NCBI GenBank assembly: GCA_013327885.1
Contig: JABUMY010000003.1
Span: 124,001 to 188,000 of the forward strand
Source: Flavisolibacter longurius
GTDB lineage: Bacteria > Bacteroidota > Bacteroidia > Chitinophagales > Chitinophagaceae
Direction: 5' to 3'
DNA: 64,000 nt
The translations under genes and the position numbers were made by a program. The notes below the pieces were generated by a model. It saw only the letters and a list, made by a program, of their open reading frames with translations. It had not been told where the DNA came from and ran no database searches. Of the stretch, positions 1 through 25,264 are shown piece by piece; the stretch's first letter is position 1; the number at the start of each line of letters is the position of its first letter.

Positions 1-710
1 TGCCTGTTGGCGGTGGCGGACTGGCTGCCGGCGTAGGCTCTTATTTTAAAACCTTTTCTCCCAAAACAACCCTGGTAGGATTGGAGCCGCAAGGTGCACC
101 TTCCATGCAGGCTGCTTTTGATGCCGGGCAACCGGTGGCGTTGGAAAACATTGAGCGGTTTGTAGATGGCGCCGCCGTTAAGCGGGTGGGTGACCTGAAC
201 TATGCCATCTGCAAAGAAGTGTTGGACCAGGTTCAACTGGTGCCCGAAGGAAAAGTGTGCACCACCATCCTGAAATTGTACAACGAAGAAGCCATCGTAG
301 TAGAACCGGCCGGTGCACTTTCCATTGCGGCACTGGATCTTTTTGCCGAACAGATCAAGGGCAAGAAGGTCGTCTGCATTATCAGTGGCGGCAACAACGA
401 TATCGACCGCATGCAGGAGATCAAAGAAAGGTCGCTGCAATACGAAGGCCTCAAGCATTATTTTCTTATCCGCTTTGCTCAGCGGCCTGGTGCGCTAAAG
501 GAATTTGTTAACCATGTGCTGGGACCAACTGATGACATTACACGCTTTGAGTACATGCAAAAGCACAACAAAGAAACCGGCCCGGCGCTGGTAGGCGTGG
601 AACTCAAATCAAGGGAAGACTATGACACGCTTCTCGCTAATTTGAGTAAGTACAAATTCAGCTACACAGAGCTGAATAAAGACGACAACTTGTTTGGTTA
701 CCTGGTGTAG
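1..710 (+). CDS. ilvA: Threonine ammonia-lyase (threonine deaminase), 3' part
   Basis: PLP enzyme that deaminates threonine to 2-oxobutyrate, the first step towards isoleucine; cytosolic. The gene is open to the left edge in the frame beginning at base 3, so its start is outside. The first visible residues, PVGGGGLAAG, are the glycine loop that grips the PLP phosphate, and VVEPAGA and ISGGNND follow as expected for the fold type II core. The last 80 or so residues (from about HYFLIRF) form one ACT-like regulatory domain, as in the short bacterial IlvA form. The stop is at 708-710, followed by a stem-loop. A TTG at 81 is not the start, because conserved sequence continues upstream of it. Feedback by isoleucine is expected from the family but cannot be read here. 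Confidence 0.93.
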   Translation, partial: PVGGGGLAAGVGSYFKTFSPKTTLVGLEPQGAPSMQAAFDAGQPVALENIERFVDGAAVKRVGDLNYAICKEVLDQVQLVPEGKVCTTILKLYNEEAIVVEPAGALSIAALDLFAEQIKGKKVVCIISGGNNDIDRMQEIKERSLQYEGLKHYFLIRFAQRPGALKEFVNHVLGPTDDITRFEYMQKHNKETGPALVGVELKSREDYDTLLANLSKYKFSYTELNKDDNLFGYLV

Positions 711-20273: not shown

Positions 20274-21596
20274 TTACCTGTAATCAAGGCTCACCTTCGC
20301 CGTTCGTTCGAGAAGTAATGATTTCAGGGCTGTGTCCTCCGGTTTCATACGAATCGTTTTTTTCTCTTTCTCCAGCAGGACAGCAATGCTCTCCGGGATG
20401 GGAATCTTTTGGTTGATGACCGGTTCAATGACATCGTAAAACTTCACCGGGTGAGCGGTTTCCAAAAAATAACCTTTTGCGTCAGGAGAAGTTGCGAGGT
20501 AACGCTGCAGGGAAAGAAAACCAACAGCGCCATGCGGGTCAAGCATGTATCCTGTTTTCGTGTACACATCAGCGATAGTATCCCTGGTCTCTTCATCTGA
20601 TATGCTGTAGGCGGTGAGCATTTCCGTTAACAAGGGCAGGTTGTTTTGGAACAATTGGAGAATGCGCACAAAATTACTTGGATTGCCCACATCCATGGCA
20701 TTGGAGATCGTAGCTACGGAAGGCTTTGCACTGTAATTGCCCGTTTGTAAAAACTGCGGCACCGTATCGTTGGCATTGCAGGCTGCAATAAAATGCTGTA
20801 CAGGTAAGCCCGATGCATGGGCCAGCAAGCCTGCGCAGATATTGCCAAAATTGCCGCTGGGTACCGAGATCACCGGGGCGTTTTCGCCCTTCCATTGTTG
20901 GTGTGCAAAGAAATAATACAGTTGCTGCGGCAGCCAGCGGGCCACGTTGATGGAATTGGCGGAAGTAAGAAAAAGTGCTTTTTGTAGGTCTCCATCCATA
21001 AAGGCATTTTTCACCAGCCGCTGGCAGTCGTCGAAGCTGCCGTCAATTTCGATGGCCGTTATGTTTTTGCCCAGTGTTGTCAGTTGCACTTCCTGTGTAC
21101 GGCTTACTTTTCCCGAAGGGTAAAGGATTACCACGTTCACGCCTTCCACCCCATAAAAACCGGCGGCTACAGCGCCACCGGTATCGCCGGATGTGGCCAC
21201 CAGCACGGTAATCTCCCTGTCGTTGTCTTTTACAAAATGACCAAGGCAACGGCTCATAAACCGGGCACCCACGTCTTTGAATGCCAGTGTTGGTCCATGA
21301 AACAATTCCAGCGTAGAAATCGCTTCGGTAACCTGAACAAGCGGAAAAGGGAAATCAACGGTTTGCGAAACGATCGTCTGCAGCTCATTGTCGGAAATGG
21401 TATCGCCAACAAAAGGCTTCATTACCGTGTAGGCAATTTCTTCCTTTGGCAGCCCTTTTAAGGCATCGACAAAACCTTTTGGCAACTGCGGAATTTTTTC
21501 CGGGAAATACAAGCCTTTGTCAGGCGCCTGTCCCTGGACGGTCGCTTCTTTAAAACTGGCCTGCAGGGATCTATTGCTGGTGCTGTAATACTTCAT
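20274..21596 (-). CDS. thrC: Threonine synthase
   Basis: PLP enzyme that converts O-phosphohomoserine to threonine; last step of the pathway. It is 440 residues, with the typical N-terminus MKYYSTSNR. HGPTLAFKDVGARF holds the PLP lysine, SGDTGGA and SVPSGNFGNICAG bind cofactor phosphate, and TAHPVKF is near the C-terminus. The gene overlaps the end of thrB by 26 bases, which fits a tight operon thrA-thrB-thrC with a shared leader. Confidence 0.96.
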   Translation of the reverse strand: MKYYSTSNRSLQASFKEATVQGQAPDKGLYFPEKIPQLPKGFVDALKGLPKEEIAYTVMKPFVGDTISDNELQTIVSQTVDFPFPLVQVTEAISTLELFHGPTLAFKDVGARFMSRCLGHFVKDNDREITVLVATSGDTGGAVAAGFYGVEGVNVVILYPSGKVSRTQEVQLTTLGKNITAIEIDGSFDDCQRLVKNAFMDGDLQKALFLTSANSINVARWLPQQLYYFFAHQQWKGENAPVISVPSGNFGNICAGLLAHASGLPVQHFIAACNANDTVPQFLQTGNYSAKPSVATISNAMDVGNPSNFVRILQLFQNNLPLLTEMLTAYSISDEETRDTIADVYTKTGYMLDPHGAVGFLSLQRYLATSPDAKGYFLETAHPVKFYDVIEPVINQKIPIPESIAVLLEKEKKTIRMKPEDTALKSLLLERTAKVSLDYR

Positions 21597-22524
21597 GTTG
21601 TTGTTGATTAAGGCGTGTGCAGCCTTGTTGATTGATGGTTGTTACGTAGGTATAATAAGCCAGCCCTAGCTCTTCGTAGGTTTCTTTCATGATGCCTTCC
21701 ACGGCTTTTGCTGTTGCAAGGTCTTTGCTGAGCATAAAAAGCGAAGGACCTGAGCCGGAAATGCCGCCACCGAGAGCGCCGGCTTCCTTGCATTCCCGCT
21801 TTACTTTTTCAAAGCCAGGGATAAGAATGCTGCGCACCGGTTCAATGATGATGTCTTCCATGGAGCGACCAATGAGGTCATAATCGCCCTTGATAAAACC
21901 CGTTACCAGGCCGGCAATGTTGCCCCATTGCCGGATGGCATCTTTCAGTTGTACTTCCTTGCGCAGGATCTGCCGGGCATCGGATGTTTTTACTTCTATC
22001 TGCGGGTGCACCACCGTAACAAAAAGCGGCGGGTGGGGGATGGCCACAATGTCAAGCGGGAAGATGCAGCGGATCAGTGTAATGCCGCCGTAGATGGCCG
22101 GTGCTACGTTGTCGGCATGCTTCACACCCGAAGCTGCTTTTTCGCCAAACATGGCAAACTGCACCAGTTCTTCCTTGCTGAAGCGATTCCCCAGCAATTC
22201 GTTGGCAGCCACCACGGCGCCGGCCGCACTGGCCGCACTGGAACCAAGTCCGCTCCCAGGCTTTATATTCTTGTGGATAAGCACCTCAAAACCGACTTCC
22301 TCTTCCAGGTCTTTCAACATTTCAAGGAGTGGAGCGCCGGCTGTGTTTTGCGCAGGGTCTTTGGGCAGGGGATAACCATCAGCGCTTTCAATGATGACCT
22401 TTTTTTCATCCAGCAGGCGCACTTCCATCACGTCGTTTGGGTCGTGCAGACACATGCCCAGCACATCAAACCCGCAGACAAGATTGGCCACCGTTGCCGG
22501 TGCTTTTATTTTAATTGCATTCAT
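21571..22524 (-). CDS. thrB: Homoserine kinase
   Basis: GHMP-family kinase that phosphorylates homoserine. It is 317 residues. The N-terminal IKAPATVANLVCGFDVLG, the ATP loop PGSGLGSSAASAAGAVVA (near residue 90) and the C-terminal GGGISGSGPSLFML are the three family motifs. It is the middle gene of the thr operon; the spacer from thrA is 75 bases and holds two short-period arrays. Confidence 0.95.
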   Translation of the reverse strand: MNAIKIKAPATVANLVCGFDVLGMCLHDPNDVMEVRLLDEKKVIIESADGYPLPKDPAQNTAGAPLLEMLKDLEEEVGFEVLIHKNIKPGSGLGSSAASAAGAVVAANELLGNRFSKEELVQFAMFGEKAASGVKHADNVAPAIYGGITLIRCIFPLDIVAIPHPPLFVTVVHPQIEVKTSDARQILRKEVQLKDAIRQWGNIAGLVTGFIKGDYDLIGRSMEDIIIEPVRSILIPGFEKVKRECKEAGALGGGISGSGPSLFMLSKDLATAKAVEGIMKETYEELGLAYYTYVTTINQQGCTRLNQQQHEVLQHQQ

Positions 22525-22599: not shown

Positions 22600-25035
22600 C
22601 TACCCCCTGAGAGTCCGGATAATATCCGCAAACACACCGGAAGCGGTTACTTCTGCACCGGCGCCGGCACCTTTTACTACCATGGGCTGATCGGTATAGC
22701 GGTTGGTAAAAAATGTTACAATGTTATCCTTGCCATACAGGTGGTAAAAATCGTGGGCAGGGTCGATGTGCTTTAAGCCAACGGCCGCTTTGCCGTCTTC
22801 GTAGGTTGCCACGAACTTCAACTTTTTGCCTTCGGCCTTTGCGCTTTCGTACAGCTTTTTAAAATGGGCTTCCTGCTTTTCCATCTCGGCATAAAAATCA
22901 TCCACGCTTCCTTGCATGCAGCTTTCCGGCATAAAGGTGTGATTGGTGATGGCATCCATCTCCAGGGGCTCACCGGCTTCCCTTGCCAGGATCATGATCT
23001 TGCGCATTACATCCATGCCGCTCAGGTCAAGCCGCGGATCGGGTTCGGTGTATCCTTCGGCCTGGGCCTGCCGCACTACGTCGGCAAAACTTCTTTCGCC
23101 GTTGTAATTGTTGAAAACAAAATTCAGCGTGCCACTTAGTACCGCTTCAATTTTTGTGATGGTGTCGCCGCTGCGCAGGAGGTCATTCAGTGTTCCGATA
23201 ATGGGCAGGCTGGCGCCAACATTGGTCTCAAACAAAAACGAAACATTGTGATCCCTTGCCGCTTCTTTCAACTGGCTGTAATAGGGATAAGGCGATGAGC
23301 AGGCGATCTTGTTGCACGCAACAATGGAAATGCTTTTTTGAAACACCTTGTCATAGGCCATAGCTACCGACTCGTTGGCGGTAATGTCAACAAACACAGC
23401 GTTGCGCAGGTTTTTTTCCTGCATGGTTTCGATAAAGCTGGCCAGGTTCGAAACTTCGCCATCGGCCAGGCGTTCCCGCCAGGTGCTGAGGTCAATGCCT
23501 TCGTCGGCAAATAACATCCGACGGCTGTTGGCCAAACCAACAACCCTTACCTGTAACCGTAAATGTTGCTGCAGGTAGGCTTGCTGTTGTGCGATCTGCG
23601 CCAGCAGCTTGCTGCCCACGTTGCCGGTGCCGGCTATAAAAAGATTGAGCTGTTTGTACGCGGTTTCAAAAAACTCCTCGTGCAAAACGTTCATTGCTTT
23701 TTTGATGTCGCCGGAAGCAATGACAGCTGAAATATTGCGTTCGGATGACCCTTGTGCAATGGCCCTTACATTCACGCCGTTACGACCCAGTGTACTGAAC
23801 ATGCGGCCGCTGATGCCGGGATGACTTTTCATTTTATCTCCCACCAGGGCAACAATGGAAAGTTCCCGTTCAATGCTCAAGGGATTTACTTTTTCCTTTT
23901 CAATCTCAAAGCTGAATGCTTGGTCGACGATTGTTTTTGCTTTCTCCGCCAGGGCTTCGTCTACGCCTACACAAATGGAGTGCTCCGAAGAAGCCTGCGT
24001 GATAAGAATTACGTTGATGTTGTGCGTGGCCAGGGCTTCAAACAGGCGCTTGGAAAACCCCGGGATGCCCACCATGCCGCTGCCTTCGAGCAGGAGCAGG
24101 GCCAGCTTGCCAATGCTCGAGATACCGGTAATGATATCGCCGTTACGATGCGTGGATTGTATTAATGTGCCTTCGTCCTCCGGCTGAAAGGTATTTTTGA
24201 TCCACACGGGGATGCCCTTTTTCATCAGGGGCTGAATGGTGGGCGGGTAAATGACCTTGGCGCCAAAATGCGAAAGCTCCATGGCTTCATGGTAGGAGAT
24301 GCGGCGGATCACTTTGGCGTTGGGCACACTACGTGGGTCGGCGGTCATCATCCCCGAAACATCGGTCCAGATCTCCACAACGGGGGCATCCAGCGCAGCG
24401 CCAGCAATGGCGGCCGTATAATCCGATCCGCCGCGGCCCAGCGTGGTGGTGTTGCCGCTTTCATCGGCAGCAATAAATCCGGGCAGCACAAACACGTCCG
24501 CTGTTGCCGTTGCAAAATAATTGCGGAAAGCTTCTTCGGTTTGGTGAAAATCAACAGTGGCCTTCGTAAAATCAGAATTGGTAACGATCAGTTTTCGCGA
24601 ATCGACCCACTGGGCATTCAGTCCGTCTGCGTTGAAAAAGGCAGCGATGATCTGCGAAGAGATCAACTCGCCATAACTAACGATGCGGTCCCTTGTGCGG
24701 TCGGTAAAATCGCGAAGCAGGAAAATGCCATTGCAGATGTCTTCCACTTCATTGAACTGCTGCATCACAAAACTGAGAACAGCGCTTTGGTTGTTCAGCG
24801 GAAGCAATTCTTTTACGGCTGCCAGGTGGCGGTCGGTGAGTTTTTGCAGGGTTGTTTTGTAGCAGCTTTCACCGCGACAGGCAAGGTTGCCGCATTCGAG
24901 CAACATGTCGGTAACACCGCCAAGTGCCGATACCACTACGGCGGTCTTGCCCTGTTTGCCCTGGATAATTTCTTTTACTTTTTTGATGTTGGCCGCATTT
25001 GCAACAGAGGTGCCGCCAAATTTTAAAACCTGCAT
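22600..25035 (-). CDS. thrA: Bifunctional aspartokinase / homoserine dehydrogenase
   Basis: Catalyses the first and third steps from aspartate to threonine. It is 811 residues from the chosen ATG. The kinase domain starts at once with MQVLKFGGTSVAN and has GRGGSDYTAA. Two ACT domains lie near 320-460 (VALVGDKMKSHPGISGRMFS...). The dehydrogenase begins near 470 with FIAGTGNVGSKLL (NAD(P) fold) and has GTLNFVFNN and the catalytic stretch YTEPDPRLDLSGMD. An ATG 20 codons upstream gives an unlikely extension; family alignment favours MQVLKFGG. It is first gene of thrA-B-C, preceded by a Thr-rich leader peptide. Confidence 0.96.
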   Translation of the reverse strand: MQVLKFGGTSVANAANIKKVKEIIQGKQGKTAVVVSALGGVTDMLLECGNLACRGESCYKTTLQKLTDRHLAAVKELLPLNNQSAVLSFVMQQFNEVEDICNGIFLLRDFTDRTRDRIVSYGELISSQIIAAFFNADGLNAQWVDSRKLIVTNSDFTKATVDFHQTEEAFRNYFATATADVFVLPGFIAADESGNTTTLGRGGSDYTAAIAGAALDAPVVEIWTDVSGMMTADPRSVPNAKVIRRISYHEAMELSHFGAKVIYPPTIQPLMKKGIPVWIKNTFQPEDEGTLIQSTHRNGDIITGISSIGKLALLLLEGSGMVGIPGFSKRLFEALATHNINVILITQASSEHSICVGVDEALAEKAKTIVDQAFSFEIEKEKVNPLSIERELSIVALVGDKMKSHPGISGRMFSTLGRNGVNVRAIAQGSSERNISAVIASGDIKKAMNVLHEEFFETAYKQLNLFIAGTGNVGSKLLAQIAQQQAYLQQHLRLQVRVVGLANSRRMLFADEGIDLSTWRERLADGEVSNLASFIETMQEKNLRNAVFVDITANESVAMAYDKVFQKSISIVACNKIACSSPYPYYSQLKEAARDHNVSFLFETNVGASLPIIGTLNDLLRSGDTITKIEAVLSGTLNFVFNNYNGERSFADVVRQAQAEGYTEPDPRLDLSGMDVMRKIMILAREAGEPLEMDAITNHTFMPESCMQGSVDDFYAEMEKQEAHFKKLYESAKAEGKKLKFVATYEDGKAAVGLKHIDPAHDFYHLYGKDNIVTFFTNRYTDQPMVVKGAGAGAEVTASGVFADIIRTLRG

Positions 25036-25124
25036 GAATGATAAGGTTAAATAAGATAGATGATGAATAAATGATTTGTTCCGGAAAACCAGCACGAAGC
25101 CCAGGGGGTAATATGGTTATTTCA

Positions 25125-25140
25125 ATCCGCGTTAGCGGAT
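25125..25140 (-). promoter_or_regulatory. Hairpin over the stop codon of the thr leader peptide
   Basis: On the minus strand ATCCGC-TAAC-GCGGAT, a perfect 6-bp stem with the leader stop codon TAA in its loop. A second hairpin, GTAGCC-ACTTC-GGCTAC, lies at 25163-25179 just before the Thr/Ile codons. CACGTAGCC (25174-25182) could instead pair with GGCTTCGTG (25093-25101), one mismatch, so two alternative folds exist. I see no classical long T-run; only TTTT follows near 25085. Confidence 0.55.
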
Positions 25141-25215
25141 CGTAGTTGTGGTAATGGTAATGGTAGCCGAAGTGGCTACGTGACCGGAGAGAATATGGTG
25201 GTTTACCCTTTTCAC
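25132..25215 (-). CDS. thrL: Threonine operon leader peptide (attenuator peptide)
   Basis: A 27-residue ORF from a GTG at 25215 to TAA at 25132-25134. It starts MKRVNHH and ends ATITITTTTIR, with eight Thr and Ile codons in a row near the end (ATT ACC ATT ACC ACA ACT ACG ATC). It is about 100 nt upstream of thrA on the same strand. Thr- and Ile-rich leader peptides control thrABC by attenuation in enterobacteria, where the peptide also begins MKR. Hairpins flank the run. The GTG start is inferred; no ATG lies close by, but a promoter-like pair ends just upstream. The match of codon content to the operon product makes chance unlikely. Confidence 0.7.
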   Translation of the reverse strand: MKRVNHHILSGHVATSATITITTTTIR

Positions 25216-25233
25216 AACTTTTTGATAGATGCA

Positions 25234-25264
25234 CAAAATAAGGGATGTGTCCGAACAAACAAAA
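25234..25264 (-). promoter_or_regulatory. Possible promoter of the thr operon
   Basis: On the minus strand TTTTG, 19 bases, then TATTTTG, close to the Bacteroidota pattern TTTG...TAnnTTTG (one base short in the -7 box). The expected start of transcription is near 25226, about 11 nt before the leader GTG. Confidence 0.4.

Follow-up and report, generated by a model that had tools for sequence, protein, structure and literature searches.

A conserved, probably translation-sensing leader upstream of the threonine operon in Flavisolibacter longurius and other Bacteroidota

The threonine operon of Flavisolibacter longurius is preceded by a short leader that is very probably a translation-sensing switch, because the leader open reading frame (ORF) and a hairpin around its stop codon are conserved in many relatives. 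Sensing of Thr and Ile through translation of the leader is very likely, judging from the codon run, its placement and its conservation. Sequence comparison establishes the conserved leader, the stop-codon hairpin (H2), a hairpin ahead of the codon run (H1), a pairing of the start region with the Thr run (H0), the overlap of the last Thr codons with H2 and the spacing of two CATAT motifs (M1 and M2). It also establishes that the window, which is the whole 64,000-nucleotide stretch analysed (contig JABUMY010000003.1, positions 124,001 to 188,000), has no U-run terminator. Our preferred reading, that a stalled ribosome directly occludes H2, has about an even chance of being right.

The leader ORF and its conservation

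The leader element, thrA, thrB and thrC all lie on the minus strand of the window (Table 1). The reading frames of thrC and thrB share 26 nt (21571-21596). Among the 80 named relatives listed, the nearest thrA is that of Flavisolibacter nicotianae, with 85% identity. The preliminary description of this locus, made from the sequence, proposed a GTG-started ORF of 27 codons about 100 nt upstream of thrABC. Such an ORF is present, and 96 nt separate its stop codon from the ATG of thrA. The ORF was also said to end with eight consecutive Thr and Ile codons. The run is real, but the count and the ending are slightly off, because nine Thr/Ile codons are followed by one Arg codon and then TAA. In being short, conserved, full of cognate codons and placed immediately before a biosynthetic operon, the ORF resembles the ribosome-sensing amino-acid leader peptides, and it is predicted to be translated.

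Table 1. Features of the threonine leader and operon, in window coordinates
Feature	Position	Strand	Detail and basis
thrC, threonine synthase	20274..21596	-	NCBIfam TIGR00260; ORF list
thrB, homoserine kinase	21571..22524	-	NCBIfam
thrA, bifunctional aspartate kinase/homoserine dehydrogenase I	22600..25035	-	ATG 25035-25033; NCBIfam NF006959, 1051.6 bits, 811 aa
Block 3' of M2	25089..25104	-	CTGGGC...GCTGG; sequence conserved in alignment, folding unsupported in Chitinophagaceae
M2	25107..25115	-	CATATTACC, 7 nt 3' of H2; CATAT enrichment
H2, stop-codon hairpin	25123..25142	-	CGATCCGC / loop TAAC / GCGGATTG; 25142-25135 with 25130-25123; fold and covariation
Leader ORF, 27 codons	25132..25215	-	MKRVNHHILSGHVATSATITITTTTIR, then stop; GTG start 25215, TAA 25134-25132; sequence
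Nine consecutive Thr/Ile codons	25138..25164	-	ACC ATT ACC ATT ACC ACA ACT ACG ATC
H0, 3' arm	25144..25150	-	CACAACT, within the Thr codon run; fold, cross-species pairing
H1, hairpin ahead of the Thr run	25163..25179	-	GTAGCC ACTTC GGCTAC; 25179-25174 with 25168-25163; fold and cross-species pairing
M1	25186..25197	-	CATATTCTCTCC; CATAT starts 18 nt after first base of start codon; enrichment, offsets
H0, 5' arm	25213..25219	-	AGTTGTG, includes the start codon; fold, cross-species pairing
-7 promoter-like box	25233..25240	-	TATTTTGT; fits TAnnTTGY; enrichment upstream of leaders
Possible -33 element	25260..25263	-	TTTG, 19 nt from the -7 box; sequence

The leader is found before thrA in most relatives of the same family. 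In the 58 relatives searched, 33 have thrA at E <= 1e-100. At least six Thr/Ile codons within nine codons occur upstream of thrA at 19 of 22 same-family loci, the three others (L007, L019 and L025) being without the run. The stop codons of these 19 leaders are located 52-131 nt before the aligned thrA start, except one at 272 nt (L029). A covariance model was built from ten relatives, six of them of the window's genus and none with the window's form of H2. The window's own element, with its H2 form outside the training set, scores lower in this model, at 41.5 bits. The model matches 220 of 394 genomes of the family, which were taken irrespective of the presence of thrA, with one match in nearly every genome listed. 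In the F. longurius genome, the window site is the sole match up to E 10 among the 150 scored of 3131 first-look candidates. A model match precedes thrA at 73 of the 80 loci picked by thrA protein similarity, at least two of which (L106 and L157) lie on the same contigs as training sequences. The seven misses are L121, L124, L130, L142, L153, L163 and L165, the last with only 107 nt before thrA. A thrA motif follows 39-239 nt downstream of 80 of 81 model matches. The 82 sources that yielded these 81 matches do not give a prevalence, because they were mostly chosen by model match or codon run and ten of them trained the model; 73 of 80 is the fairer figure. At three loci of the family (L007, L019 and L142), neither a leader nor a model match precedes thrA, and the element is apparently absent. 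The comparison of thrA leaders across Chitinophagaceae, proposed with the preliminary description, finds the Thr-rich ORF kept in most relatives, and the description is not refuted by its own test.

The leader design extends beyond the family. In a search of 296 genomes of the phylum, the model matches 16, eight in this family and eight in a family of another class (f42), and all eight of the latter are directly upstream of thrA. In a separate draw of 99 genomes of the phylum, 75 have a thrA match. Among the best 30 of these thrA loci, 17 have the run, 14 have in addition a hairpin with the stop codon in its loop, and 12 also have CATA[TC] after the hairpin. The 12 loci with the full design come from families f1, f23, f24, f27 and f42. 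Two loci of f22 have the run without the hairpin, and the run is absent at 13 loci, among them four of f42 and all those of f18, f28, f35, f36, f40 and f47 (one or two loci each). On these counts, the design is widespread in the phylum but not universal.

A promoter-like sequence just upstream of the leader had been proposed as well, and our data agree with it in that the class of the -7 box is enriched before leaders. In the 117 of 136 leaders with a usable start, TAnnTTGY lies 14-32 nt before the start codon in 30 leaders (3.3 after shuffling) and TAnnTTTG in 23 (2.0 after shuffling). A looser box, 6 of 7 positions of TATNTTG, occurs in 95 of the 117 but is weak evidence because 62.7 are expected after shuffling; the stricter boxes are the better test. 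By its consensus and spacing, TTTG is a possible -33 element. A further promoter pattern has zero matches in the window. Transcription is predicted to start at ~25228, so that a start downstream of 25132 looks unlikely. In its account of promoter motifs, a study of Flavobacterium psychrophilum gives two boxes at -12 to -5, TAnnTTTG for sigma-A and TAnnTTGY as motif SM5, for which it considers an alternative sigma factor the most likely (PMC9723704). Set against these two motifs, the -7 box of the leader fits the alternative-sigma motif rather than the sigma-A box.

Pairings, codon placement and CATAT motifs

The leader RNA is predicted to fold at -41.3 kcal/mol (z -2.25), and 5 of 200 shuffled sequences are equally low. 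Two hairpins of the preliminary description, one preceding the codon run and one enclosing the stop codon, correspond to H1 and H2, and the loop of H2 includes the leader stop codon TAA. H2 covaries in relatives: 96.3% of its cells are paired and four of seven pairs show double changes (12 such cells), compared with 0-2 double-change cells in controls slid by 1-3 columns. This sample comprises 78 distinct rows in an alignment fitted to the tested structure. RNAalifold on a MAFFT alignment returned only 2 pairs, because loop gaps are misplaced in that alignment, and was superseded by the model with stated structure.

An alignment-free test compares duplex energies within species with those of partners permuted between species, using representatives with <70% identity and no tree. 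On 111 leaders, which are those of the 136 with a start codon and NATA[TG] at +11..+21, the strongest of 867 segment pairs are H1, H2 and the start region with the Thr run. With 89 representatives, z is -11.9 for H1, -6.7 for H2 and -5.9 for H0, and in each case 0 of 300 permutations are as low; four control segment pairs for H0 give -0.6 to +1.2. H0 is the third pairing found. The earlier claim that a third pairing excludes the first is not borne out for H0, because H0 and H1 coexist in the predicted fold.

Other pairings were scored on the same representatives. The segment from +4 to +18 of the start gives z -3.0 with h+46..64 (h being the start of H2), the M1 region with the Thr run gives -1.9 (10 of 300 permutations), and M1 with M2 is weak at -2.7. 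The arms of H1 with the block after M2 (+0.3 and -0.7) and the Thr run with the spacer (-0.4) are unsupported. Three further candidates were rejected. Pairing of the 3' arm of H2 with M2 had appealed through the Y/R pattern of M2, but with M2 and downstream sequence the native partners are not better than permuted ones (z +1.7), and M2 is the same where the arm reads GCGGATTG. For the start region and the two CATAT copies (GUGGUA with UAUCAU), z is +1.2 and +0.8, and the start sequences differ in other families. A small hairpin 3' of M2 folds at -5.56 against -5.61 for shuffles, its arms at z +2.3 against permuted ones. In f42, the GGGC...GCY block shows changes on both arms by eye. Among the segment pairs tested, no conserved competitor of H2 was found; a competitor made of invariant bases would be invisible to the permutation test.

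The codon run is placed with respect to H2. In 136 non-identical leaders, the Thr/Ile enrichment covers eight codons, beginning 18 nt upstream of H2 and ending with the second codon inside it, and each position from -6 to +1 relative to H2 is Thr or Ile in 81-99% of leaders. Of the two codons inside H2, codon 0 is Thr in 96% of leaders and codon +1 in 87%. The stop codon falls at position +9 of H2, which is the loop, in 121 of the 136 leaders; in 13 of the remaining 15 it lies further downstream. The sensing codons thus share part of their nucleotides with the 5' arm of H2. Given the usual lengths of a ribosome footprint, H2 would be blocked by a stall at any of the last four or five codons and would be free to form once the ribosome had departed.

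Two CATAT motifs flank this arrangement at set distances. M2 has CATAT in 119 of 136 leaders (6.4 in shuffled sequences), its gap from H2 is 5-9 nt in 120 of 136, and it recurs in other families. At the position of M1, 64% of the 117 leaders for which a start is usable have [CA]ATAT[CTA][AT] at +11..+21; codon shuffles give 3.8%, with a maximum of 10%. The shorter [CA]ATA[TC] is found there in 94 of 117 thr leaders, compared with 3 of 36 ORFs of the window and 18 of 271 ORFs of relatives. M1 occurs in three reading frames (63/8/4, with 63 in frame 0 and 12 in the others), and therefore some selection acts on its nucleotides. Measured from the first base of the start codon, the last T of CATAT comes 22 nt on in 68 of 111 leaders. 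For the second copy, the distance of the last T from the stop codon, counted in the same way, is 20-24 nt (most commonly 21) in 103 of 123. M2 together with the block that follows was rejected as a genome-wide signal: the pattern gives 28 rows in 58 relatives, nine of them thr leaders by coordinates, and the reversed pattern gives five.

Termination signals and related leaders

No U-run terminator was found in the window by a scan for a hairpin with a T stretch, the best candidate reaching -2.4 kcal/mol, in line with the earlier remark that a classical one is not evident. In the same scan, 36 of 135 thr leaders reach -8 kcal/mol or better, and five of the six best matches shown are H2 itself followed by a broken T stretch. 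The tract 3' of H2 has a mean of 3.1 U in 8 nt, so that intrinsic termination at H2 would be weak. Two loci (L022 and L023) have a run of seven T after CCAGGA near thrA, possibly a true terminator.

Codon-run leader peptides also precede hisG and, at 4 of 35 loci, ilvD, in the same bacterial family, and they provide a comparison. The hisG loci of relatives reach -8 kcal/mol in 13 of 15 cases and hisG of the F. longurius genome reaches -15.9; in this genome, then, his has a textbook terminator, and for thr none was found. The his leaders differ also in exchange segments that look of the textbook type by eye, which the thr leaders do not show. In F. longurius (L284, G000:C48 near 228897), the His leader MNKNVHIHHHALPNR before hisG is accompanied by an apparent textbook exchange of GGTAAGC at the stop codon, GGCTTACC, and GGTAGGCC with a U run. 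In family f9 (L276), a His-rich leader before hisG with its stop codon in a CCTC-GTG-AGG hairpin is followed by CACATATAATC, a design of the thr type with His codons. At the hisG loci L291-L293 of f42, the His leaders have their stop codon in a GUGC...GCAC hairpin, and inspection by eye shows no U-run terminator. The four leaders before ilvD (L259 of G013, L323, L328 and L340) are rich in Ile/Val and are followed, by eye, by a classical hairpin and U run.

Many his leaders share the first CATAT copy. It is found near +15/+18 in 28 of the 41 his leaders with a located ORF (45 loci), compared with a mean of 6.8 and a maximum of 16 in 1000 codon shuffles. This is suggestive rather than proof that the copy is common to his leaders, because His codons favour CAT and the start codons were picked by rule, at least one (L280) wrongly by eye. 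In ilv leaders, CATAT is at +18 in one of four (L259, provided that translation begins at its first ATG).

The best-known cases of leader-peptide attenuation come from Proteobacteria. Like E. coli thrL of the thrABC attenuator (Thr_leader in Rfam), the leader described here is a short ORF with Thr and Ile codons before the fused aspartate kinase/homoserine dehydrogenase gene of thrABC, with hairpins around the run. Unlike thrL, it comes without a U-run terminator in the window and without a conserved terminator/antiterminator exchange among the segment pairs tested, its last Thr codons are contained in the 5' arm of a hairpin that has the stop codon in its loop, and it has CATAT motifs. The mutually exclusive antiterminator and terminator hairpins of the enterobacterial logic, which the preliminary description invoked, are therefore not supported, and its caution that the mechanism may differ from the classical one agrees with this outcome. 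Rfam gives no match at gathering, and Thr_leader is absent from the two matches up to E 5. In pyrBI- and tnaC-type control, whether a hairpin or Rho acts likewise depends on a ribosome at the leader end; the signals of these systems are different.

No description of this thr leader was found in the open-licence literature. A comparative attenuator study by Vitreschak and others (FEMS Microbiol Lett, 2004) reportedly mentions Bacteroidetes/Chlorobi, so priority for predicting such leaders may lie there. Within the phylum, the F. psychrophilum study describes 'strong clues' for attenuation before amino-acid operons, with conserved 5' elements of pheA and hisG, and thrA is not named in its attenuation section; it also reports, for F. 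psychrophilum, a lack of Shine-Dalgarno sequences (PMC9723704). Short ORFs in a map of B. thetaiotaomicron are described there as reminiscent of attenuator leader peptides (PMC7366714).

Proposed mechanism and alternatives

Our best guess is direct occlusion of H2 by the ribosome, which gives the correct sign at the last codons while needing the fewest parts. A ribosome would initiate at the GTG codon, possibly during a pause of RNA polymerase at M1. With ample Thr and Ile, the run would be read and the ribosome would release at the UAA in the H2 loop and depart. H2 could then close just behind the polymerase in the AU-rich CATAT region, and transcription would stop there or soon after, by weak intrinsic termination helped by a factor or by Rho. 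In addition, the Thr run would pair with the start codon in H0, so that no later ribosome could enter and reopen H2. Under a shortage of Thr or Ile, the ribosome would remain at the final Thr codons, which make up the 5' arm of H2; neither H2 nor H0 would form, and the polymerase would proceed into thrABC. Several points count against direct occlusion. At the first codons of the run the sign would be wrong, since a ribosome stalled there would not keep H2 from forming. The tract after H2 would make for weak intrinsic termination, the stop codon is not at position +9 of H2 in 15 leaders, the window's form of H2 is outside the training set and scores lower, and the small hairpin after M2 is no better than shuffles.

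The main rival for the transcription stop itself is Rho-dependent attenuation, which we consider rather unlikely as the account of the whole leader. The C-rich, G-poor Thr run and the spacer to thrA would serve as Rho entry, masked by a ribosome stalled on the run; on its departure, Rho would load and terminate at pauses near M2. This would have the right sign for every codon of the run and would fit the lack of a U-run terminator in the window. The base composition of 135 leaders points the same way, with 28.7% C and 10.0% G in the run and 19.2% C and 10.4% G in the spacer, compared with 17.7% C and 23.8% G over the opening 120 nt of thrA, although this excess of C over G is moderate and gauged against the thrA 5' region only. 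Rho would leave unexplained the covariation of H2, the stop codon in its loop and the sequence-specific CATAT.

Post-transcriptional control seems unlikely. Here, leader translation or H2/M2 would set the stability or translation of the thrA message, or a protein or nuclease would bind M1/M2. Both motifs do look sequence-specific, M1 through its occurrence in three frames and M2 through its recurrence in other families, and their local pairing partners are unsupported, M1 with M2 being weak. M2, however, lies tens of nucleotides upstream of the thrA start.

Classical attenuation of the E. coli type, with a terminator that is weak or unrecognised, is in our view quite improbable. A hairpin ~46-80 nt after the start of H2 would be one such terminator, and the pairing of h+46..62 with h+62..80 has cross-species support (z -4.5 on the 89 representatives); the leaders that pass the terminator scan, five of the six shown through H2, and the seven-T run at two loci could be read likewise. 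Against it stand the terminator scan, in which the window falls far short of the hisG loci, that of the same genome included, and the 3' arm of H2, which shows no preference for its native downstream partners. A functionless Thr/Ile-rich ORF arising by chance is extremely improbable, as nothing was found in its favour and conservation, covariation and codon placement all oppose it.

Beyond direct occlusion, a wider reading of CATAT is tentative, and we hold it to be possible without favouring it. CATAT may be a Bacteroidota-specific signal, most simply a pause of RNA polymerase ~22 nt past the leader start, which would allow ribosome loading, and again ~21 nt past the stop codon, which would hold the polymerase until the ribosome finishes. 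It could then be a module common to leaders that sense different amino acids and, together with the stop-codon hairpin, form an attenuator that needs neither an antiterminator nor a U run. If CATAT is indeed such a pause or loading signal, it would give a handle on transcription-translation coupling in a phylum that is reported to lack Shine-Dalgarno sequences. The covariance model is useful for annotating leaders outside the coverage of Rfam. A widespread Thr leader of Bacteroidota without a classical terminator would mean that the same sensing is joined to another way of stopping transcription.
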